Below, in pieces: positions 24,246-54,800 of a stretch of DNA of 64,000 nt (the first letter of the stretch is position 1; each line of letters starts with the position of its first letter). The DNA lies in the NCBI RefSeq assembly GCF_021917145.1, contig NC_061072.1:9999805-10063804 (forward strand), in the 5' to 3' direction. A program made the position numbers and the translations under genes. Below the pieces are notes generated by a model, which did no database searches, had not been told where the DNA came from, and saw nothing but the letters and a program-made list of their open reading frames with translations. This stretch comes from Hypomesus transpacificus (Eukaryota; Chordata; Actinopteri; Osmeriformes; Osmeridae).

Positions 24246-24725
24246 TTTTATTGTTGTTTGTGGCTTACATTTTTTATGGATTTATCGTTGTAAAAATTCC
24301 TGTACTCATTATATAAAATGTGTGTACAGCAACAAATGTTTTTCACTTTTTGGGGGCATTTGTAACACGTTAATCAAATATTTCTGGAGACCTGCTATAT
24401 AGTTTAATCGTTTGTATTAACATTGGTATATATACAATTCTGTATTTTTTGCAGAATGAATGCCCTACGGTCATAATTTTAAAGTATTGACGTTGTTATA
24501 TTCACCTTTTTTCGACTCTTTTAAAGGACATACATTACACTGCGGCTCACTCAGTGACCCCTCCCACTCCGCATATTAACTCACAAACGTCACAACGTGT
24601 ACTTCCTGCCATCACTACGCATGTCCAGATTTGAGTATTTGTTTACTTGTGTGATATGTGCGTATGACTTCTTTCCTAAGCTAGTTCATAATATTACTTT
24701 GCGATTGCGACCAACATCTGCTGCT
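24246..24725 (+). promoter_or_regulatory. acly-klhl11 intergenic and klhl11 upstream region
   Basis: About 480 bases separate the acly poly(A) signal from the klhl11 ATG. The distal half is AT-rich. Nearer the gene there are a CCCCTCCC GC-box-like word (24558-24565) and a CGTCACAACG half-CRE-like word near 24588. The klhl11 5' UTR must lie here, but its start cannot be placed. Confidence 0.4.
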
Positions 24726-26986
24726 ATGGCAGCCGCAGCACCGACCCCAGAGGACACAAACCGAGGCGGTAACACTGGAAGCGGCACAGCTGGGACGCTC
24801 GCGGCGGATGGAGAATCTGAAGAGGCTGAGGAATTTTCGTCGTCGACCCACTGCTCTGAGCTCTCTCGTCGGCAAAACGAGCAGAGGAAGGCCGGTTTGT
24901 TCTGTGATGTAACGTTGGTATTCAGTTGCGGAGCATCCAGTGACACGGTACAAAGTTTTGAACTGTCTGCCCATCGCTCGGTTCTCGCCGCAGCTACAGA
25001 CTATTTCTCTCCCCTACTGGGAGGACAGTTTTCGGAGTCGCTGTCTGGCCGGGTGAACATGAAAGAATGGAGTTCTGAAACAGGGCCAGATCCAGAGACA
25101 GTTGAAAGCGTCATGCAGTTCATATACACAGGAGAAATACGTGTCAGCACTGCCAATGTGCATGAGGTACTGGAACTTGCAGACAGGTAGGCAAAATACA
25201 CACACCACAAACAAACTCAATGTAAAGAATAACCATAACGCATTATTCATTGCGTGTATGCAACGCAATTTTCCATGATTCAGGTAGAAATGGACAGTAT
25301 CTTGTTAAGGCTTACTATAGACTTAAGCAATAGAGATATTGCTTGGTTGCCTACCTTAGTTTTTCAGATATTGTATTATTTGTGATGATTTTATGTATCA
25401 GATTCCTGCTGGTGCAGCTGAAGAACTTTTGTGGCGAGTTCCTGAAGAAGAAATTGAGCTTGACCAACTGTGTAGCCGTGCACAGCCTAGCTCATATGTA
25501 CACTTTGGACCAGCTAGCACTGCGGGCTGCTGACATGATAAGACGCAACTTCCACAAGGTCATCCAGGATGATGAATTCTACACCCTGCCTTTCCACCTG
25601 GTCAGGGACTGGTTGTCTGATGCGGAGATCACTGTGGACTCAGAGGAAGTGCTGTTCGAGGCTATTGTCAAATGGGTGCAGCGCAATGGTGAAGAGAGGG
25701 ATAAATATTTTGAGGAGCTGTTTCGACTCCTCAGGCTTCCACAGATCATGCCCACCTACCTGACACGGGTGGTCAAGAAGGAGCCTCTGGTGGGTAATAA
25801 CTCTGCGTGCTTGCAGCTGGTGTCAGATGCCGTTGAGGGCCATGCCATTCGCTTAGAAAACCTCAAATCAGCGGACCTCGAATTCTGGGCCAATTACATG
25901 GCGGCTTTCCAGCCACGCTTTGGACAGAACATGGACGTTATCATGGTGGTCGGCGGAGTGTCCGAGGGCGGTGACTACCTGAGTGAGTGCGTGGGCTACT
26001 TTGTGGCTGAGGATCGCTGGGTCAACCTTCCGCACATCCATAATCACCTTGACGGTCATGCTATAGCAGTAACAGACTCCCATGTCTATGTTGCGGGCTC
26101 CATGGAACCAGGCTTTGCCAAGACAGTGGAACGCTACAATCCAAACCGCAACACCTGGGAACAGGTGAGCAACTTGACCACCCGCAAGCACTCTTTTGGC
26201 CTAACCAGCATCAAGAACATCCTTTACAGCATCGGGGGCCACGGAAACTTCAGCCCGGGGTTCAAGGACGTGAGCGTGTACGAGCCCGAGCAGGACAAGT
26301 GGCTCAACCTGGAGTCGGCGCCCAAGATCTTACGGGACGTGAAGGCGGTGAGCGTGGAGGACCGCTACGTCTACGTGACGGCTCGCACGCCGGTCGACAC
26401 GGACAACGAAGACGGGCTGAAGACGGTGACGACGCGCTACGACACGGAGAGCCGCCAGTGGCAGGAAGTGGACTCCCTGCCCCTCATCGACAATTACTGC
26501 GTCTTCCAGATGGCCGTGGCGCCTACCAACTTCTACCACACGGCCTCCTGCTGCCCCAAGAGCTACGGTGTGCAAGACGAAGCGGCGAAGCAGAAGATCA
26601 GCGCCCGCATCTCGGACGACATCCTGGAGAGCCTGCCGCCAGAGGTCACCAGCATCGAGGGCACCGCCATCTGCTACCTGGGCGACGACGTCTTCATCAT
26701 CGGCGGCTGGAAAAACAGCGACGACGTCGACAAGCAGTACCGCAAGGAGGCCTACCGGTACTGTGCAGAGAGGAAGCGCTGGATGCTGCTGCCGCCCATG
26801 CCTCAGCCCCGCTGCAGGGCCACCGCCTGCCACGTCCGCATCCCCTACCGCTTCCTGTACGGCTGCCAGCGCTACCCCATGCCCCAGAACCTGGCTCGTC
26901 AACGGGATCGCATGCAGCAGATGCAGCAGCTGCACCGGCGTACCCTCACCTTGCGCAGGCAACTGCAGTCGCAGATAGAGTGCTGA
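24726..26986 (+). CDS. klhl11: Kelch-like protein 11
   Basis: Two exons, 24726-25186 and 25402-26986, encode 681 residues (human about 708). The frame is open upstream to 24597, but the ATG at 24726 ([11 protein letters not shown]) matches the family N-terminus. Domains in order are an acidic Ala/Gly-rich leader, BTB (about 50-165; [25 protein letters not shown]), BACK (about 175-290), then Kelch repeats ([47 protein letters not shown]). The tail is basic and glutamine-rich, ending SQIEC, as in other vertebrates. BTB-Kelch proteins serve as substrate adaptors of Cullin-3 E3 ligases. The two-exon structure matches mammals. The second exon is strikingly GC-rich from 26220 on, which creates long open frames on other strands that are not genes. 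Confidence 0.96.
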
Positions 26987-29402: not shown

Positions 29403-31973
29403 TCACACGTGCCCAGAAGCAGGTGTGCTCCCTGCTTCACCACAGGCCAGAGGACTGTCACGTGGGACTATGTAATCTGTTACATTGGGCAGGCCAGGCA
29501 CCACACAGCAGCTGAGGGCACTCCGAAGGATAGCCATGTCTTGGGCATCATACCACTCATCCGTCTTATCGTTGTAACATTCCACGTTGAAGGTGGTGTT
29601 GAAGCCGTTGAATCCTCCCACAACATAGAGCATGTTGTCTACCACCTCAATGCCAAAGTTGCTACGAGGGTTGAACATGGAAGGCAAGGTACGCCAACTG
29701 TTGATAAGTGGGTTGTACACCTCTGCAGTCTTGAGACGGTTTGCACCGTTAAAACCTCCAACCTTGTTGGATATGAAAAGTATGAATTGAAATCAACCCC
29801 TGTTATTCACAATAAGGAACAGAGCACCATAATCTTTGAAGGTCAACTCATTAATTTAAGCACAGTGTTCTATTTTATCACTATATCTTCAATGTTCAGT
29901 CATAAAAAATATATATATACACACCCCTCTTATGCTTGCAACCAGTAGTTTGTTCAGCTCTAAAGCCTCCACTTAAGATGTGTGGTGAGACTTACTGCAT
30001 AGAGCTGATTGTGGTAAACAGCAATCCCAACCCCACTCCGTCGGCAGGTCATGGGTTTAATCAGGGTCCATTGGTTGGTGTTGGGGCAGTAGCTCTCTGC
30101 ATTGAATAGGCACTCTTCCCCGTTGAAGCCTCCACAAATGTAGACCTGACCCATGAAGGGCCCCCATAATATTCACACATAATTGACTGAGTTTTTATAA
30201 TGAAAGTCGTAAACGGATAGATGATGTTTATATCCCACTTTCTTAGTGGAATATAATAAGAATGTTCTCCTACAGTCTGTGGTCTCCTGCTTGTACCCAC
30301 CTGTCCATTGAGTGTGGCAGCGCTGGCGTCACTTCTCCTCATATGCATTGGTGCTATAAGAGTCCATTGGTTGGTCTCAGGGTCATAGCGCTCGACAGAG
30401 TTGATTCGCAAACAGCCATCAAAGCCACCCATGGCGTAAATGTAGCCATCCAGCACCGCCACACTGACGTAGCATCGCCGTGAGTGCATGGGTGCCACCT
30501 GGTGCCAGGTGCGAGTGATGGGGTTGAACTTGCGTACGTCGTTGAAGTAGTCCACACTATCAAAGCCACCGATGCAGTAGACAAAGCCATCGAGGTACAC
30601 GGCGCCATGGTAAGCCCGTGAGGTATCATTTTGGGCCACCTTTACCCAGCGGTCAGCCTTTGTGTCATATGCCTCAATCACATTGGTTGGACTGCCACCA
30701 CTCCAGCCCCCGATGGCCAATAGGATGTTGTGGGGAAGGCGAGGGCGGGACATGGGGTTACCAAAGTACATGTTGGAGGGACCATGCATGTTGAGCTCAT
30801 ACAAGGCCTTCAAGCCGTTGAGGACAATGGTTTTGCACTCTAAACTTTCCTTTACAAGAGGGTGATTCCTGATGCTGTCTAGGAAGTTTTCAGGGGTCAT
30901 CAAAGCCATACGCACCTATATAGATGACACAATAGCAAATAGTTTGGTCATCCAAAGATAGTAGTAGAAATGTTTTCAAATCCCCTTACATCTTACACAT
31001 CTTTCCCACATACGTTGAACATGTTGCTTGCTTACCTTCCCACCAATCAAATATATTAACATAAAAAAACTGACTGTAAGTGGGGTGAATCAAGCATTTC
31101 AGGTCTCTATGACCTATGACACTATCTAAAGAGGAGACTGTCACCTTTGGTAGGAGCACGGGGAGGGAGTGCTTGCGATTTGAGAGATCATGAGAGACCC
31201 ATCGAAGAATGGCCTGGTACACTTGGTCCTCCTGCTTGGCATTGAGGTTGTCTTTCTCGATGAGGTCACAGAGTTGCACCAGCGACAGCTCCAGAAACTC
31301 CTCAGACACTTTGGCGATGTCTTCAAAGTGATGAAGGGTGAAGAGGAATGCCTTGCTGCGCAGTTCGTCACAGGAGTAGAAGTCGGCAAACTTGCAGATG
31401 CCTATGCAGTTCTCCAGACACAGTTGCGACTCCAGGAATTCGCAACAGGCCTGCACTATCCCTGTGATGCAGAACTGGTCTGCAGCCTCCAGGAGTCTCT
31501 CCACATTGTCCTCGGTGACAGGGAGAGCTCCAGTGTAGGCAAACTCAATAATCAGCCTCATCATCTCAGGAGTGGTGCCAGGGATAGTATACACACTCTT
31601 CTCTGAGTTGTTCCAGCCACTGGTGAACAGAGCACTGTCGGAAAGTATGTTACATTTCAGTTGTTACAAAGTGGTTAAGACACATTTGATGTAGTGTTAC
31701 ATTACAGTATATGGGTACACCACAGAGATAGATTTGTTGATCAAGTATATAAGTCCTTATAGATCATTAAAACAATGTAACTGATTATTTTATCAACCAT
31801 TTCTAAATGGACAAAGATTCTTACCGGAAATAGGAGCTGAATGCACACAGGATATTCTTATGAGCTTTGAACTCAACCCCATCAACTTTGATGACCACAT
31901 CACAGAGCTGCCCCTCCAGCCGTAACTCATTAAAAATATTAAAAGCCACGTTGGTCTTGTCCATATTGCACAT
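29403..31973 (-). CDS. klhl10: Kelch-like protein 10
   Basis: Five exons in coding order: 31973-31825, 31634-31145, 30915-30301, 30145-29996 and 29762-29403, about 590 residues (human 608). Two in-frame ATGs, 31973 and 31964, are possible; a stop lies directly upstream of the first. The N-terminus is BTB (FNELRLEGQLCDVVIKVDG, AHKNILCAFSSYFRALFTSG), followed by BACK (CCEFLESQL, NCIGICKFADFYSC) and six Kelch blades (ILLAIGGWSGGSP, VYCIGGFDSVDYF, IYAMGGFDGC, VYICGGFNGEECL, LYAVGGFNGAN, LYVVGGFNGFNTTFN). In mammals KLHL10 is a testis-specific Cullin-3 adaptor needed for spermatid maturation. The N-terminus lacks the short extra leader of the human protein. It is head-to-head with nt5c3b. Confidence 0.95.
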
Positions 31974-33011: not shown

Positions 33012-36000
33012 ATGCCGGTGCGGACTGCCATTGCAATCTGGCACCAGTTGACCAAGTATGAGGTTAGAATTTGCTCTGCTTTTAAGAATGTTCAGCTGCC
33101 TCTAATACATATCTATATTTGCTTAGAATTTGTCCAGTTCCATTTGCTTTGAGTTGTTCTTACCTTTCAGATATTATGTTAAATAATTTGTATCACAGTA
33201 TGTGCACAAAGCAGTGCATTCGCAGCATACATCCACTTGGCTGTAGTGTAATTTTATAGTAGTTTGAGGTTAAATTAAATCTTGACCTCAGCCTATTTTA
33301 TAGATCCCTGACTTGGCCAAGTCCTCAGTGCTGATGAGGGACCGCAGCAGAGTTGAAGAGACCATACAGGCCATGCACAGAGCTGGACCCAGCACCCTCC
33401 AGGTAGCACAAACCACAATCTGATCCCACACTGCCCTCTATAGATGACATACATTACTCAGTGTTCATCCTGCCCATTCATTTCTCTAGGTGAGCTTGTC
33501 TCAGCTGCCCTTGACACTTCCTTTATTTGTTCTTTGTTGGGACTAAACACGTCTGGCTAATTTAACCCAAACCATAGACCCAAACCAGTTTTCCTTGTCC
33601 TAAGATTTAGCTGGTGAAACACCATCCTGAACTCATCATGTAATATGAGTGAGTGGATGTGTACCATTTGGGTGTAGGTAGGAAACTGTATTCTAAACAT
33701 GGTTGGGTCTCTACAGGTGATTTCTGACTTTGATATGACACTCACCAGATTTGCTCACAACGGGAGGAGGTGTCCCACCACTCACAGTGAGTACCACCAA
33801 CCCCAGTCAACACAGGGTCCCGGAAGAAATAATATATTGACCTAACATTCCCTTAACATAAAAATGAGTATGCTATTTAAACATCTAACACAATCTTGCA
33901 GATATCTTGGATAACAGCTTGATCCTCAGTGAGGACTGTAGGAACCAGGTGAGCTTATGACAAGAATGTAATAAAAGGAGAACAGCTCTAAAAAAATAAT
34001 AATAATGTTATCTATAGTATTGTTAAAGAAGATGTCTGTAAAGCTCTCACACCTCTGTCTGTAGATGAGGGAGTTATTGAACACCTACTACCCTATTGAG
34101 ATTGATGCTGCCCTCACCGTTAAAGAGAAGCTGCCCCTCATGGTGGAATGGTAGGAGTCTGACAGCACAGTGCAATCACTGCATGCACATACTGTATTCT
34201 ACATCTAAATGTATAACACACATGCAGGTTTCAAACAGGGTTTGTTTACTGTACTGTCCACTGCATGATGTCTACAGGTGGACTAAGGTACACGAGCTGC
34301 TTATCCAGCAGAAGATCCGTAAAGACCTGCTGTCCCAGGTTGTGAAAGAGTCCAGCGCTATGCTCAGGTTAGTCCCGCCATATCACAATGACTCTCTGCT
34401 TACAAGGAGTTGTCCATACAGTATGGCTAGACTGATTTGTGATACTTTGTGTACAGTGCCCTCCAAAAGTATTGGAACAGTGAGGCCAATTCCTTTATTT
34501 TTGCTGTAGACTGAAAACATTTGGGCTTGACATCAAATAATGAACGTGAGACCAGAGATCAACGTTTCAGCTTTTATTTCCAGGTATTTACATCAGGATC
34601 TGATGCACAACTAAGAAAATATCACATTTTGTTTGAATCCACCCACTTGTCATGTGAGCAAAAGTATTGGAACAGATATACTTAAAACATATTTAAGTGA
34701 ATAAGACTTAATATTTAGTTGCAAATCCTTTGCTTTCAATAACTGCAGCAAGTCTGTGACCCATTGACGTCACCAAACTTTTGCATTCTTCCTTTTTGAT
34801 GCTTTCCCAGGCTTTCACTGCAGCCTCTTTCAGTTGTTGTTTGTTTTGTGGGGTTCCTCCCTTCAGTCTCCTCTTAAGCAGGTAAAATGCATGCTCTATA
34901 GGGTTTAAGTCTGGAGATTGACTTGGCCAGTCTAATACCTTCCATTTCTTGCCCCTGATGAACTCCTTTGTTGTTTTGGCAGTGTGTTTTGGGTCGTTAT
35001 CTTGCTGCATGATGAAGGCTCTGCCAATCAGTTTGGTTGCATCTTTCCTTAAATTGGCAGACAAAATGTTTCTGTAGACTTCCGAGTTCATTTTGCTGCT
35101 GCCATCATGTGTTACATCCTCAATGAAGATTAATGAGCCCGTCCTAGAAGAAGCCATGCAAGCCCAAGCCATGACATTACCTCCACCGTGTTTCACAGAT
35201 GAGCTTGTGTGTTTGGAATCATGAGCAGTTCCTTTCTTTCTCCAAACTTTAGCCTTTCCATCACTTTGGTAAAAGTTAATCTTTGTCTCATCAGTCCATA
35301 AAACTTTGTCCCAGAATTTTTGAGGTTCATCTCTGTACTTTTTGGCAAATTCCAGCCTGGCCTTCCTATTCTTCTTGCTAATGAGTGGTTTGCATCTTCT
35401 GGTGTAGCCCTTGTACTTTTGTTCATGAAGTCTTCTGCGAACAGTAGATAGTGATACCTTCACTCCTGCCATCTGGAGGTTGTTGCTGATCTCACTAACA
35501 GTTGTTTTAGGGTCTTTCTTTACAGCTCTCACAATGTTTCTGTCATCAACTGCTGATGTTTTCCTTGGTCTACCTGTTCGACGTCTGTTACTTAGTACAC
35601 CAGTAGTTTTCTTCTTCTTCAGGACATTCCAAATGGTTGTACTGGCTATGGCCAATGTTTCTGCAATGGCTCTGATTGATTTTCCATCTTCTCTAAGACT
35701 CACAATTGCTTGTTTTTCACCCAAAGACAGCGCTCCGGTTTTCATGTTGTTTTCACCTCTGAATACAGTCTGCATAGACAAAACCTATCTTACCCAATCT
35801 GAACCTGAGTGTAGACATTCAGTGGTATTTATTGATTGAATAATGTATGTAATAGGACACACCTGGGCAACAAAACACACCTGTCAGTCATATGTTCCAA
35901 TACTTTTGCTCACGTGACAAATGGGTGGGTTCGAACAAAAAGGTGATATTTTCTAATTTGTGCATCAGATCCTGATGTAAATACCTGGAAATAAAAGCTG

Positions 36001-37085
36001 AAACGTTGATCTCTGGTTTCACATTCATCGTTTGATGTCAAGCCCAAATGTTTTCAGTCTACAGCAAAAATAAAGGAATTGGCCTCACTGTTCCATTACT
36101 TTTGGAGGGCACTGTATATTGTAGCACGCTTATAAACTGATGAGTGGCTCCTGATTAGGTAAATAGTTGTGCTGTGATTAGGAGACAATAATACATTTGT
36201 GTAATAGATAATACAGTATACTATTCCTTCTCCTGTGCTGTTGATTTCTCCAGGGAGGGCTACAGGGGGTTCTTTGACCACCTGCAGGAGCAGCATGTGC
36301 CTCTGTTGATCTTCTCAGCTGGAGTGGGAGACATCCTGGAGGAGGTGATCAGACAAAACCAGGTCTTCCACCCCAACGTTCACATCATGTCTAACTACAT
36401 GGATTTTGATGACTGTGTAAGTGCTAGAAACCTTTGATCCAAATCGAATTCATTTGATCACGAAACATGCTAACAATGGTTTAGCGATGCCAATGGTCTT
36501 ATTGCCCATGTCAACGTTTTTTTTAATCAAATGTCCCAAACCCCACACTACTTAAGGGATCTTTTGAAGTCCCCAGGTGATGGTCCTTCCTGACCCTGGT
36601 TCTTTTCCAGGGAATACTGCGGTCCTTCAAGGGCCAGCTGATTCACACCTTCAACAAGAGGGAGGGTGCCCTCCTCCACACGGCACACTTCCTGGAGCTG
36701 AAGGAGCGCCCCAACGTGCTGCTGCTGGGGGACTCTCTGGGAGACCTCACCATGGCAGACGGAGTGGCCACTCAGCACATCGTCACGATTGGCTTCCTCA
36801 ACGACCAGGTGAGGGGACCTTGTTGGGGGTCATTTAAACATGCAACCTCCAAGATTTCACTTTAAAGGTACCATACACACTTGATGGACTATGGACTGGG
36901 AGTTTGCAAAACGGCACGTAACAAACCTCGTGATTCCTGGACTTGATCTTTGGCTGCCGTCTTGTTTTCCCCAGGTGGAGGAGAGGAAGGAGTCCTACAT
37001 CAACTCCTACGACATTGTTGTGGTGAAGGATGAAACCATGGATGTCCCCAACGCTGTCCTCAACTACATCACCACCGGCAAGTGA
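33012..37085 (+). CDS. nt5c3b: cytosolic 5'-nucleotidase 3B (7-methylguanosine phosphate-specific)
   Basis: Nine exons: 33012-33062, 33304-33402, 33717-33786, 33902-33948, 34065-34150, 34278-34367, 36254-36416, 36611-36808 and 36975-37085, giving 304 codons (human about 300). HAD-superfamily motifs are [12 protein letters not shown] (nucleophile DxDxT), [26 protein letters not shown] and [15 protein letters not shown]. The family dephosphorylates pyrimidine or 7-methylguanosine monophosphates. Order between klhl10 and fkbp10 supports the 3B paralogue over 3A. The start is uncertain: the frame stays open upstream to the acceptor at 32988, and the first 17 codons are not recognisably conserved, so translation may begin in an earlier exon. 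The sixth intron is enlarged by a Tc1 insertion without damage to splice sites. Confidence 0.92.
34454..34676. repeat. Tc1 left terminal inverted repeat
   Basis: Left arm with outer and inner direct repeats sharing AAAAGTATTGGAACA. It is near-identical to the reverse complement of 35892-36114. Confidence 0.88.
34708..35781 (-). CDS. Tc1-like DD34E transposase (intact open frame)
   Basis: Continuous 357-codon frame within the Tc1 element. An N-terminal paired-type helix-turn-helix region (about 15-110, [20 protein letters not shown]) contains a GRPRKT AT-hook-like basic motif. The catalytic domain shows WTDETK (first Asp), [10 protein letters not shown] (second Asp) and SPDLNPIEH (Glu). Thirty-four residues separate the second Asp of QQD from the Glu, the DD34E signature. 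It ends GFATKY, typical of the family. Usual Tc1 transposases are about 340 residues; an internal Met ([11 protein letters not shown], residue 13) may be the true start. No stop, frameshift or lost catalytic residue is seen, so the enzyme could be functional; this is not shown by sequence alone. Confidence 0.95.
   Translation of the reverse strand: MSMQTVFRGENNMKTGALSLGEKQAIVSLREDGKSIRAIAETLAIASTTIWNVLKKKKTTGVLSNRRRTGRPRKTSAVDDRNIVRAVKKDPKTTVSEISNNLQMAGVKVSLSTVRRRLHEQKYKGYTRRCKPLISKKNRKARLEFAKKYRDEPQKFWDKVLWTDETKINFYQSDGKAKVWRKKGTAHDSKHTSSSVKHGGGNVMAWACMASSRTGSLIFIEDVTHDGSSKMNSEVYRNILSANLRKDATKLIGRAFIMQQDNDPKHTAKTTKEFIRGKKWKVLDWPSQSPDLNPIEHAFYLLKRRLKGGTPQNKQQLKEAAVKAWESIKKEECKSLVTSMGHRLAAVIESKGFATKY
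35892..36114. repeat. Tc1 right terminal inverted repeat
   Basis: Right arm, reverse complement of the left arm with a few substitutions, ending CACTG before the flanking TA. Confidence 0.88.
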
Positions 37086-38214
37086 GGAAATGGTGTGACA
37101 GTGGGACAAGTCAAGCATTGATTACTTCCTGTTTGCATAGGGGTTGTGACAGGAACCACAATCAATCGCATGATGGGACACGCAACACCCGTCACAAGAA
37201 TGAGGCATTCGACTAGTTCCACATGGTTGCTCCACAACGCTGCATGCTGGTGCACCCTCAATTACCTCAACCAGTTAAAAGCTATAAAAAAAAGAAAGAT
37301 GTTTACTGTCACTGTATGGTTGGAGTCTTATCAACATTTCTTGTAAATCCCAATGTTGGTATCCAGCGGTTTTTTAATGCGTTGGTACAACATGTCTACA
37401 TCTCTAAGTTCTCAATGGAGGTGAGCTAACCCTTCACTAAAATGTATTTTGCCACGGAAGAACCTCAAAATGTAAGATGTTATTTAATAGGGGTGGGAAT
37501 CTTTTGGTACCATATGATTCGATTCTTGGGGTCATGATTCGAGAATCAATTGTTTCCCCCACCCCTATTATTGAAATATCTTTTCCAGGACTTGTTAAGG
37601 AGTAGGTTTACACCAATGTATATTTTAGACACTGTGATGGTGTACACAGAGCTTGTGAACCACAATGGTGCACCTTTTTATTTAAACTTTTAACTAGATG
37701 CATTTTGGAACTGTTTTACATATGTATTTGATAATGTAATTTTGAATGACATTTTAAAGTTGTGGTTTACCTCTAGGATTAGGCCACTGTTTGTCTGGGA
37801 AAGTGACATGGTGTGTCACTTGGAAGTGCATGGAAGTCATTATGTTGGTATTATCTGCAGATGCTAGGAAACGTTTTTTGCACATACCCAGAAATGTTAG
37901 TTATGAAAGAAGATACATTTTTATCCCCAAAAAGTTTGAAGTTTTCTGTGAAAAAAAAAACTTTAATTCTTAGAAAATCAGGGACAATGAAGGTGCCGTT
38001 AGGAAGATTGACTTGTTCAATCAATCACTCTTTAACATAACTTTCTCTTAACATGACCAAACCTTACCATTAAGAATTGTGCTTCTTTGAGAATACTTTC
38101 CACAATTTGTGTCAATGGAAATATTAAACAATTCACTTGGTAAAAAGTCTTAATTTGGATGTGGCGGGTGCAGTCTGTCCCTGAGAAAGAGGAAGTGTGT
38201 GTGTCGTGTTCTCA
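37086..38214. other. nt5c3b-fkbp10 convergent 3' region
   Basis: Contains the 3' UTRs of both genes, which converge. A small hairpin repeat lies at 37485-37570. TTTATT at about 37677 is a possible reverse-strand poly(A) signal for fkbp10, and an ATTAAA-type signal near 38120 could serve nt5c3b. Neither is certain. No exon seen. Confidence 0.45.
37485..37570. repeat. 86-bp hairpin, MITE-like
   Basis: The segment opens TAATAGGGGTGGG and closes CCCACCCCTATTA, a 13-base perfect terminal inverted repeat. The core has GATTCGATTCT and GATTCGAGAATCAAT, resembling a short non-autonomous DNA element common in fish genomes. Family assigned by memory only. Confidence 0.6.
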
Positions 38215-41200
38215 TCACAACTCCTCGTGCATTGCATTCTCCTTGTCCTCCTCCACCTTCAGTTTCAGCTCGTCTGGGGTGATGACTCCATCTTTGTTGC
38301 GATCCTGGTTTCTGAACATGTCTGCGATAACCTCTTCAGGGTCCGCCCCTGGTTTCATACGACCTTTGCCCTCCGCTACTTGTATTTGAATGAATTCTCC
38401 AAACTTAGGGGTTAGAAAGAAGAAAGTGGGGAGGGAGGGAGAATGAAGAGAAATGTATATGAATTGAATCATGTGCCTTCATAACATGCAAATCTGAACC
38501 ATACTTTACTTTTATATTACTATTTAGTTAACATGTGCCTTCATAACATGCAAATCTGAACCATACTTTACTTTTATATTACTATTTAGTTAACAGTGGC
38601 CTATCTGCATACAGTAACTGTCTAACCTACTGTATTTCATCTAGGTTATTGTAGCACCATACCTCCTCCACAGGGACCTTCTCATTATTGTCCATGTCCA
38701 GGGCTTTGAAGAGTTCTGCAGGGCTGTCCTCAAGCCACACAAACAGGTAACCATCTGGCACACCCTTCTGCAGACTCATCAACTCCAGCTCAAACTGGAG
38801 GACGGCACTGCCCGGCACACCAGACGCTGAACCCGGAATAGAACGCACTAGTGTCAGCTGCTGATAACAGTTCACAATGAAACAGCCGGGTTGGATCCTA
38901 AATGCTATATTTTGATAGTAGTTAATAGCATTGTATCCCAGTTGTTGAAACGGTAAGGTGGAGGGGAAGGTGATCACCTCCTTTCTCTCCGTGTCCAAGG
39001 TGCGGAGGGATGATGACCACCCTCCTCTCTCCTACGCACATGCCCCGGAGACCCTCGTCCAGCCCGTCAATCACCTTGTCCGCTCCAAGCACTGTGTCCT
39101 GCATGTTGTCATAGTCACTTCTGACAAGTCAAACATGGATAGAAGAAGGACACTAGTTAGGAAAATGAACGCCGCCAGACTAGCCAGCTATATAATTTCT
39201 GGATTTAACTAATGTAGCAGTCTGAATGACAGTTCTGCTATTTGAGTTATACTCATGCATGTTACGCTGATAGCATGGTATAGAAGGATGACTTGGCTGT
39301 GGTCACGTGAGAGTAGGACACAAAAACATCAACATATGGCCTGATGAGATCTGAGCTTACGAGGAAAAGAGGAGTGTTCCGTCCAGCAGGGAGCAGTTGT
39401 AGTGGTAGTGGATGAGGTCATTGATGTCGCTGGTCTCGTTGCATACCTCAGGCTTGTGGGTTACCTGGATCTCCACAGAGTCCTTGGGGTTGTGAAAGTC
39501 GATGACGTGGATGTCAAAGACCAGCACGGCTGAGCCTGGAATGTCCTGACCTGGATGGACAGAGAGAAGTGATACATTTTGCTGTGGACTGGAATACAAA
39601 AATAACACAATGATGGACAGGTTTATTAGACAAAGACTCAATCAAGAACCCAAGAGAAGTCTGTGGTAATCGGCCTGCATGCATATGCTGAAATGTGTTG
39701 TTTTATTCTAAAACATCTACATCAAATATTCAGGGGCCAGAGATGGACCAGGGCTCAGCACTGCTTGTCACTCACCTGCTCCCTGCTCTCCATAAGCCAG
39801 GTGAGGTGGCATGACGATCCTTCTCTTCTCCCCAACACACACCCCCTGCAGACCCTTGTCCATGCCTGAGATAACGTAGCCCATCCCAATGTAGGTGTTG
39901 TATGTGCTGTTCCTCTGGTAACTGCCAAAAGGTAGAGGAGAGAAAGATTCGACATTCACATTTAAAAAAGCCATACACATTTACAGACTGGGATTTAGTA
40001 GTAAGATATGTGGAAAGCATTCAGAATGTTGCAACATTAACAAGCTGTCATTAAAACAATATTTTGATTTACTTTCCAACATGCCCAGGCACATTTCCAC
40101 TTTCCATTGCGTGCAGTGCAATGGCATTGTCTTCATGTACATTGCATGAAAGCACAAGTTCAGAGACCAATGAGCTAAGTATCCTGAAGATACCCTAAGG
40201 TGGCACCAATGTGGTCTATAGCAGTGTCCTCACTATCCATATAGGTGTAGTAAATACGTTCATGGTCAAAAACCGGTAAAGGCAGGCACCACCTGCCATG
40301 TTTGCTTCCCATTTTTAAAAATAATAAATGTATTTAAATAGAAAGAGAATACCAGAAAGCCACTGTGTGTTGAATGGGAGGTATACTGAAGCAGCACTAA
40401 TACTAGGTGAGCTGCTTTTTTTCATGACTAATACAGTGTTTGAATTGTACCACGGGGCTGTTGCATGAGCTTTGAAGACAAACTTGAGCTTTGGTCCTCT
40501 CACACATGTGCTTAGGTGCTGGAGAATTTTTGCCTCCTAGTCCTTGTGATTTATGTTTTGTTCTTCCTGATCTCAAATTTAGAGAATCTTGACAGTAAAC
40601 ATTAAGAGCAAACATCTTGGTTCGGCCCGCCAACCAATAAACAAAGCTTACCTGCTGTCGAATGAGACTCCGTTGAGGAAGCTGCCATTGTAGTGGTAGC
40701 GAATATAATCCCCAGCCACAGATTTGCGCGTGCAGGACTCAGGCACATCCTGGTTTTCCACAGTGACATCATCCTTGGGGTTGTACAGATCCACTAACAG
40801 GACATCAAACACTAGAGTGGCCTGAGAAGGGATATCTGTGCCTGATGTCAGGGATGAAGACACAAGCAGACACAAATACTCAGTATTCAACTTTATGTTG
40901 GTTCAAATTCACACTGTATGTGACCTAAGTTTAGTTTGTTAAGGTGAAGAGGCACTGAACTGTGTGAGTTGGTGCTCTGTTTTCAGGTCTGGAACACGGA
41001 CCATTTAAAAGCTGCTTTGTCCTTAAAGGACTTCAAACTACCTCTCTAACAATTCGAATGGTTTCCTGTAATGTAATATTTTTTGTGTTTTTTTGTAATT
41101 TTATAAATTATGTTTCCAGCAACCCTATAGATCTATTTCTCAAGTATGGCTAAATAAAGGTCAACATTCAAATCTCAATTAACTGCTGAAGCAATCGGTT

Positions 41201-51839: not shown

Positions 51840-54800
51840 ACAATAAATGCACAGAGTTGGAGGAGGTAGATCATTTCACACATAGATGGTGTGCACACAT
51901 GAAGCCCCAGTAACGTCAGGGTGTTAGCTACAAGCAAACAGGCATAAGTATGTTGTGTGAAAGACTCTGGTCACAAGAACACCTCAATAAAGTGTACCTC
52001 AAAAACATGAGGGAAAACTCGGATCCTGACAGACATTCGTTTTACTTTACACAATGACCATCTACAGTTTCACATGGGCCTCTACTAGAGCAGTACATCA
52101 GGTAAATATGTGACATGTAATTAATGTAATTATTACTTGGACAGCAGTGGCAGGTGATCCATGTCGCATTAAGAAGCACACAGACACAGAAAAATGTGTG
52201 CCACAGTGAGGCATACTAGAGGTCTTACTTAAATCCCCATCCAGTTCCTCCTAGGACAATAGCTGCCAGCAGGATTGCCCCTGCGATGGACCCTATTATG
52301 ATATTGGTGCCACTGGGACCTGTGCAGAGGGTAATGGGAAAGGAGGAAAAAACACCAGATCCCAAATTAGTTTGGTAAGAAAGGTAATGATTAAACAGTG
52401 TGTTCTCAAGGGGTCAGCTGGGTATGAACCTTTGTATTTCTCTGGGCCCTCTGGAGGGGTGGGGTCAGGGATGGGATCGTACACGCTGCAGTCCTTTCCT
52501 GTGTAGTCTGGATCACAGATGCACTTCACCTCATTACTACATGTCTGCAGAGGAGAGAGAGGGAATGAGTCACATCACAATTAATTCAAACTAAACAAGA
52601 ACAACAGACGTTGTAAAAGATATTTTGGATGCTGAATATGAAAATCACACTGAAATCGATATGCTGCTGTTTCACACTACATATTTTTTTACAAATGACT
52701 GAGTGTATTGCTTTTGAAAACGTGAGGAATCCACCCTTCAAAGTTTGTAAAGTCCACCAGCCTGCTACTGATCTGACCCCAGGACGTTTGACCAAGCGTC
52801 CACCAGAGTCCACCAGCCTGCTACTGATCTGACCCCAGGACGTTTGACCAAGCGTCCACCAGAGTCCACCAGCTTGCTACTGATCTGACCCCAGGACGTT
52901 TGACCAAGCGTCCACCAGAGTCCACCAGCTTGCTACTGATCTGACCCCAGGACGTTTGACCAAGCGTCCACCAGAGTCCACCAGCTTGCTACTGATCTGA
53001 CCCCAGGACGTTTGACCAAGCGTCCACCAGAGTCCACCAGCTTGCTACTGATCTGACCCCAGGACGTTTGACCAAGCGTCCACCAGAGTCCACCAGCTTG
53101 CTACTGATCTGACCCCAGGATGTTTGACCAAGCGTCCACCAGAGTCCACCAGCCTGCTACTGATCTGACCCCAGGATGTTTGACCGTACACACCCCATGG
53201 TGGGAGCAGACCCGGGAGGGGGAGGAGCCGGGGCAGGTGCTGAGGTTGAAGGTGTTGACGGGCAGGCAGCGACGATCCAGGCACATCATGTTGGGGCCGC
53301 ACGGCGTCCCATCCTCAACGTAGCCCAGGTCGGAGCCGTCCTCCAGCACCGCGTGACCCCCGCTGGCCACACCAGAGGAGACACAGTGAGACACAGGAAG
53401 ACACAGGGAGACACAGGGAGACACAGGGAGACACAGGGAGACCCGGGGAGACACGGGGAGACACAGGGAGACACAGTGAGACCCAGTGAGACACAGGGAG
53501 ACACAGGGAGACACAGTGAGACCCGGGGAGACACGGGAAGACACAGGGAGACACAGTGAGACCCAGTGAGACACAGGGAGACACAGTGAGACCCAGGGAG
53601 ACTCAGTGAGACCCAGTGAGACCCAGTGAGACAAAACAGACGTTACACTATCCGAATGGTTATCCCCTGATGTTTAGGTGTTTTTGTATCGCTTCCTCTC
53701 TCTCTCTTGTCTCTGTTATCTATCCCTCTCCTCCTCACCGGCAGTCCAGGTACTTGTTCTGGTGGTAGATGGTCATGCTGGTCAGGTCCCCCTGCAGCTC
53801 TCCAAAGCTGGGCTTGGCAGACATGTTGGTGCACAGCAGAAACCCACAGAGCACATCCCTGAGACAGGCACAGAGAGAAAGAGAGCCAGAGAGCAAGAGC
53901 TTAGATATATCTGATTTTGTTGTTGATACAGGTACAGAGACAGAGGAGAGTCAACTCAGGACACGTGGTTTCTAACCAATGTTCACTCACTGCTTATTGC
54001 ACTGGACCCAGCTCTGTCCGCTGGAGTCTCGTCCACAGTTTCCCTTCTCTGTGCCCTCGGAGTTGAGCTTCTCATAACAGAACCGATCAGCCGAGTCTGA
54101 AACATCCAGGGTTAAAGGTCAGGCTACATCACTTCCATCGCTCATTTTTGTGCACTTCTGGTGTCTGGTTTCAGCAACTGAAAAATACCCACTGTAGAAC
54201 TTAATGACGCTCAACAGGTTTTTACATCATACACTTTAGGTAAGCATGCTTTAATATACAACGGTAACACAGAATAAGGGGAACAAAGTGGAAAAGAGGA
54301 AGAGGCTGGCTGGCTGGATACTAACTGTGGCCCCAAAGAGTCTTGCACTGGCCATCTCTGGTCTTGCAGCGGCCCCCGTAGCAACGTCCCTGAGAGAGTG
54401 AGAAAAGAAAATCAGAAAAAGACAAACCATTAATAAAGGCAAACTGCATGTTTGTATTAATCCTCTCGTTGGGTCACAAAACACTGCTTGTGTGCTTTTC
54501 CTTTACCTGTCCGACATCACACATGTACCCATCGAGTTTGTGGACATTATGAGGACACTAGAAAGATAAAAAATGACACATTGACTACTTGCAGTACGTA
54601 GTCTAACTGTTACACAAAATCCTCATGTTGAATAACACTCACCTGACTGGAGTCTCCTGTACACATTTCAGGGACGTCGCAGTCATTTCCAGTCTCACGA
54701 CACGTCACCCCCCTAATCTCATACTGTCACATCACCACACGCAGAGAGAGAAAATGTAATCGTAGTAAACCTTATCTACATTTACATTTAGTCATTTAGC

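Follow-up and report, generated by a model that had tools for sequence, protein, structure and literature searches.

To our knowledge, DNA transposons with demonstrated native activity are rare in vertebrates. Sleeping Beauty (SB) was reconstructed from dead copies, and Passport (PPTN) of flatfish, a native teleost Tc1, is named as natively active (PMC4683633). Here we describe a full-length Tc1-like transposon at positions 34454-36114 of a 64,000-nucleotide stretch of the Hypomesus transpacificus genome (contig NC_061072.1, positions 9,999,805 to 10,063,804; hereafter, the window). The element is very probably one copy of an autonomous cut-and-paste family of the Tc1 type that has undergone an explosive and very recent expansion in this genome. 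The burst of this family is recent, and some of its copies may still jump.

Described relatives and structure of the element

Among described systems, the element resembles Sleeping Beauty and the ZB, SB and SB-like DD34E families of fish in its long ends, its TA target, its AT-rich insertion sites and its transposase, which is ~340 aa in the SB/ZB-type families (PMC9777934). In some fish, these families number in the hundreds of copies. Fish genomes that hold 100 or more intact copies number 4 for SB-like, 1 for SB and 19 for ZB-like elements, and the coding sequences of the four groups in that paper are more than 80% identical, a figure that can be read as applying within or between groups. 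In contrast, the transposase shares only 43% amino-acid identity with SB100X where the catalytic regions align (234 columns), and its linker reads CKPLIS rather than the conserved PLL (PMC9777934). These two differences place it outside the Sleeping Beauty family. Its first two catalytic aspartates also have 96 residues between them, versus 90 in PMC4683633.

Also similar, by description, are the salmonid elements DTSsa1, 4, 9, 10, SSTN1, Tss and SALT1, which have long inverted terminal repeats of ~200 bp, CAGT ends and lengths of 1.5-1.6 kb (PMC2198921). Salmon Tc1 elements of this subclass spread in short bursts and by horizontal transfer, and salmonid DTSsa1 and DTSsa2 keep a few open frames. 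The lamprey-teleost Group 1 Tc1 elements (PMC3516227) are comparable as well, being ~1,610 bp long, present in thousands of copies, 95-99% identical and horizontally transferred. Six PCR primers for this DTSsa1-like group of Kuraku match the element at best at 12-15 of 20-23 bases, a comparison made without a chance control, and this argues against membership. The element's tip and transposase strings found no relevant match in open papers (one unrelated foamy-virus paper was returned; supplements and Repbase lay outside the search). The family may well be catalogued already. The element belongs to a well-known kind, of which it is a new member or at least one unmatched here, notable for its youth, intactness and abundance; its structure and mechanism are those of a textbook Tc1.

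The features of the element, in order along the window, are as follows (the 40 scored copies and the sample from contig C1 are described in the next section).

34452..34453, no strand: left copy of the TA target-site duplication; TA/TA in 40 of 40 best-scored and 33 of 33 C1 copies
34454..36114, minus strand (that of the transposase): full-length Tc1-like (DD34E) transposon, 1661 bp; all 40 scored genome places match positions 1-1661
34454..34675, plus strand: left terminal inverted repeat, holding the outer and inner direct repeats, from inverted-repeat comparison
34463..34480, plus strand: left outer direct repeat, CCAAAAGTATTGGAACAG, putatively transposase-binding by analogy with Sleeping Beauty
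34658..34675, plus strand: left inner direct repeat, GCAAAAGTATTGGAACAG, of presumed function
34708..35745, minus strand: transposase, an open frame of 345 aa from MKTG, with D152, D249 and E284; residue 177 is Ser (majority Pro)
35894..36114, minus strand: right terminal inverted repeat, from inverted-repeat comparison
35894..35909, minus strand: right inner direct repeat, GCAAAAGTATTGGAAC in the minus-strand reading, from the sequence
36088..36105, minus strand: right outer direct repeat, which departs from the family majority at 36096 (element position 1643)
36115..36116, no strand: right copy of the TA target-site duplication, by sequence inspection

The tips read CAGTG at 34454 and CACTG at 36114. 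The preliminary description of this DNA had given an element with both inverted repeat/direct repeat (IR/DR) ends, flanking TA and an unbroken DD34E transposase frame at 34454..36114. We find the coordinates to be exact, with TA on both sides and 345 open codons on the minus strand. The frame encodes the triad D152, D249 and E284, with 34 residues separating D249 from E284, and an in-frame ATG at 35775 would lengthen the protein to 355 aa. Pfam domains identified are HTH_Tnp_Tc3_2 (PF01498, 3.2e-25) and DDE_3 (PF13358, 1.1e-13), and the top match in the PDB is the catalytic domain of Sleeping Beauty (SB100X, 6.3e-54). The first HTH is followed by a GRPR motif. The HTH and DDE domains, the D34E triad and the TA duplication assign the element to the Tc1 (DD34E) family of the Tc1/mariner superfamily. 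The pair of direct repeats, outer and inner, in each of its ~200-bp ends further assigns it to the IR/DR subgroup.

Within each inverted repeat, CAAAAGTATTGGAAC occurs twice, once as the outer and once as the inner direct repeat; the right outer copy is one base off, and the left outer copy begins with CC, not GC, before AAAAG. Complementarity between the arms is 96% over 179 nt and 90% over another 51 nt. Counted to the end of the inner direct repeat, they differ by 12 substitutions and one indel over ~222 bp, so that the earlier statement that they differ by only a few bases is slightly generous. This similarity is inherited and gives no date for the insertion, as 10 of the 12 substitutions and the indel are the family majority state. 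At element position 34 (window 34487) in the left arm, the 70 copies compared have G (65), C (3) or A (2), and the opposite arm has C at the counterpart site in the family majority. Gap repair or conversion between arms is a possible cause of this three-state site.

Number, age and intactness of the copies

The genome searched was the source species' own 437-Mb assembly. A 35-bp core of the transposase gene has 1,347 exact matches genome-wide, and 1,537 with up to three mismatches, against 0 for the reversed-pattern control of each search. Chance origin of the element is therefore excluded. The exact-core copies alone make up 0.51% of the genome. A 34-bp tip that includes the TA has 3,093 matches within three mismatches, against 0 for its control. 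With 2.01 tips for every core, there can be no large swarm of solo ends or internally deleted derivatives. Pairing was possible for 98 of the 100 tips listed and gave 49 elements, 43 of them exactly 1661 bp long; the other two tips have no partner in the list.

The best 40 of 864 first-look candidates were scored, a set that is thus biased towards similarity. Thirty-six of these are identical across all 1661 bp, and the other four depart from the majority by 1-4 bases. All 40 are at different sites, given that no 30-bp flank is common to any two, and all are flanked by TA/TA. A less biased sample consists of all 33 copies on contig C1 with an exact 35-mer core (three are also in the set of 40). 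All of these are full length with TA on both sides, and their identity to the majority is 99.3-100%, with 0-12 substitutions (mean 4.6) and, in five copies, small indels as well. A frame of at least 340 codons is present in 25 of the 33.

Two subfamilies were distinguished. The 20 copies of A diverge from their own consensus by a mean of 0.13%, and the 13 copies of B from theirs by 0.28%. Neutral rates of ~3e-9 to 1e-8 per site and year would put the age of this divergence at roughly 0.1-0.9 million years, with the identical copies younger still. Copy counts in the species' own genome and divergence among copies were among the checks that the preliminary description had proposed for its reading of intactness as recent activity. 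The burst of near-identical, full-length copies bears out that reading, more strongly than the letters of the window by themselves could, and the genome-wide counts agree. The opposite case, of a genome holding only old and diverged copies, was looked for and not found; the copies whose sequence was read are young, full length and mostly open.

The window copy departs from the majority at element positions 34, 193, 764 (P177S) and 1643. Its state at position 34 is common to two other copies, whereas at position 1643 (window 36096), in the right outer direct repeat, 69 of the 70 copies compared have the other base. The sequence context of P177S has a single match in the genome, and therefore the window copy left no descendants carrying this change. 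It is an intact-looking, recent leaf of the burst and not its master. With a missense change that occurs in no other copy and a changed direct repeat, it need not itself be active.

Movement, origin and alternative explanations

By analogy with Sleeping Beauty, the transposase would bind the two direct repeats in each end, pair the ends and then cut at the tips beside the TA. The freed element would join a new AT-rich TA site, and copy number could grow through sister-chromatid repair or through jumping ahead of the replication fork. Clues to movement come from a transposase-dead variant. Three C1 copies (L050, L059 and L067) have in common a stop codon that arises from a cluster of changes at element positions 1141-1144, and the genome has 40 copies of this variant, spread over 24 contigs (the sequence was read in 3 of the 40). 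On the simplest reading, a source without a working transposase multiplied, helped by transposase that other copies supplied in trans. The spread of this variant, as judged from sequence, lends indirect support to cut-and-paste movement by the encoded enzyme.

The stop-bearing copies are clustered, with four pairs within 100 kb versus 0.36 expected under uniform placement (p 0.001). This is a hint of local jumping, the expectation assuming even density of the element. For the listed copies on C1 (33) and C2 (61), local hopping was not significant. Some stop-bearing copies on C2, C22, C48 and C364 are 20-90 kb apart. Haplotigs or duplications were considered as the source of the close pairs on C48 and C364 and were rejected, as the inner flanks fetched fail to match as duplicates. 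In 152,000 flank bases there are 117 occurrences of the excision-footprint motif TAC[AT]GTA, and 7 of the 40 copies have one within 60 bp, counts that speak neither for nor against excision.

A fuller scenario, to which we assign an even chance, is that this Tc1 has been caught mid-invasion. It would have entered horizontally and, in well under a million years, multiplied to ~1,500 copies, most of them full length. Many hundreds of frames would be open (extrapolated from 25 of 33) and transposase-dead riders already seeded. Many insertions would still segregate in the population, among them perhaps that in the nucleotidase gene described below. Several points weigh against an autonomous, recently expanded family. 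Eight of the 33 C1 copies have a broken or shortened frame, and P177S and the changed outer direct repeat may make the window copy less fit. Sampling also matters: the 40 scored copies are the most similar of the 864, and the C1 copies were picked by an exact 35-mer, with at least 8 further paired-tip C1 elements of inexact core outside the sample. The search patterns would mostly miss copies diverged by more than ~10%, and polishing may have evened out copies in the assembly.

The alternative that survives best, unlikely but credible, is that the family is young but now silent: the burst would be over, and host silencing or self-inhibition would keep every copy inert. In keeping with this, the coding variants among copies look neutral after insertion, with 17 silent, 45 missense and 4 stop changes, where random single changes would give 21% silent, 74% missense and 5% stop. 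The transposase-dead variant has reached 40 copies, and salmon Tc1 bursts were short (PMC2198921). However, the 36 of 40 best-scored copies that are unchanged imply that the last jumps were very recent, and the frame is kept in three quarters of the C1 sample (25 of 33).

Regarding origin, the pattern is that expected of a recent horizontal arrival. In vertebrates, transposable elements are inferred to have been transferred horizontally at least 975 times (PMC7070016). A rather unlikely alternative is that a long-resident family was lately reactivated from one surviving copy. CpG observed/expected is 0.24 in the element vs 0.42 in the rest of the window, which suggests that the element's ancestors lived in methylating genomes. 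Such depletion would be expected after long life in the methylated genome of this species, and equally in that of a donor. Other, older Tc1 elements are indeed present: two copies of another family (L071 and L072) are decayed, with stops and frame changes, and in two pieces compared between them (86 and 146 bp) they share 90-92% identity. However, these are ~43-48% identical to the window transposase in amino acids over the aligned parts, and there is little sign of a tail of older copies of the family itself. Of the cores within three mismatches, 88% are exact. A degenerate 10-residue peptide pattern has 1,522 matches, and the 100 listed comprise 97 identical to the family, a single one-base variant of it and two from another Tc1 family. 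In IMG/VR and GTDB contigs, the transposase peptide pattern matched 2 and 32 stretches, respectively, none confirmed by tblastn, and the tip pattern matched 0 and 0.

It is very improbable that the near identity is an assembly artefact, in which short-read polishing swapped true differences between copies for the majority sequence, since private substitutions as well as indels, the linked differences that set two subfamilies apart and the 40-copy stop variant are all preserved, two visibly decayed copies of another Tc1 family survive in the same assembly, and polishing would not explain the scarcity of truncated copies (2.01 tips per core).

The host gene, its surroundings and the interest of the family

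The element lies between two host exons, with limits set by eye.

34278..34367, plus strand: host exon upstream of the element, 29 residues, UMPH-1 profile positions 63-91
36254..36416, plus strand: host exon downstream of the element, UMPH-1 profile positions 92-145

The downstream piece scores 76.9 bits to Pfam UMPH-1 and the 29-residue upstream piece 20.0 bits, under the curated cut-off of 23.7. As the exons encode consecutive parts of UMPH-1, the element is intronic and antisense to the gene, and no coding sequence is broken. The intron with the element is presumably removed with splicing of this UMPH-1 (5'-nucleotidase) gene. The preliminary description had placed the element inside nt5c3b. 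The flanking exons back the UMPH-1 gene family, and the gene name itself goes beyond this family-level support.

Kelch/BTB-like open frames, judged by eye, are present at 24558-26983 (plus strand) and 30064-31663 (minus strand) and are consistent with klhl11 and klhl10. Their position beside the UMPH-1 gene agrees with the KLHL10/KLHL11/NT5C3B neighbourhood of human.

The right flank of the element is single copy in the assembly, save for paralogous exons of 73-78% identity and a short dispersed repeat. This repeat is located at 37477-37556, where 37 of the 42 listed right-flank matches fall, at 80-92% identity. The 64-kb window contains no further Tc1 copy besides that at 34454-36114. Also present are a perfect 62-bp tandem duplication (two copies, 38470-38595) and a 56-bp tandem repeat (7.8 copies, 99% matches, 52751-53185) that adjoins a 10-bp array at 53377-53633. 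Nested inverted repeats at 7187-7262/7726-7801 (86%) and 6999-7061/7895-7957 (84%) surround ~0.5 kb and are perhaps an older inverted-repeat element.

With ~1,500 copies, those read being near identical and for the most part intact, this natural Tc1 family makes it possible to test directly how an element of this kind becomes established. It also lets one ask how quickly non-autonomous riders arise, whether the family is silenced by its host, and whether insertions, including intronic ones like the window copy, alter genes. The family could also supply a native transposition tool.

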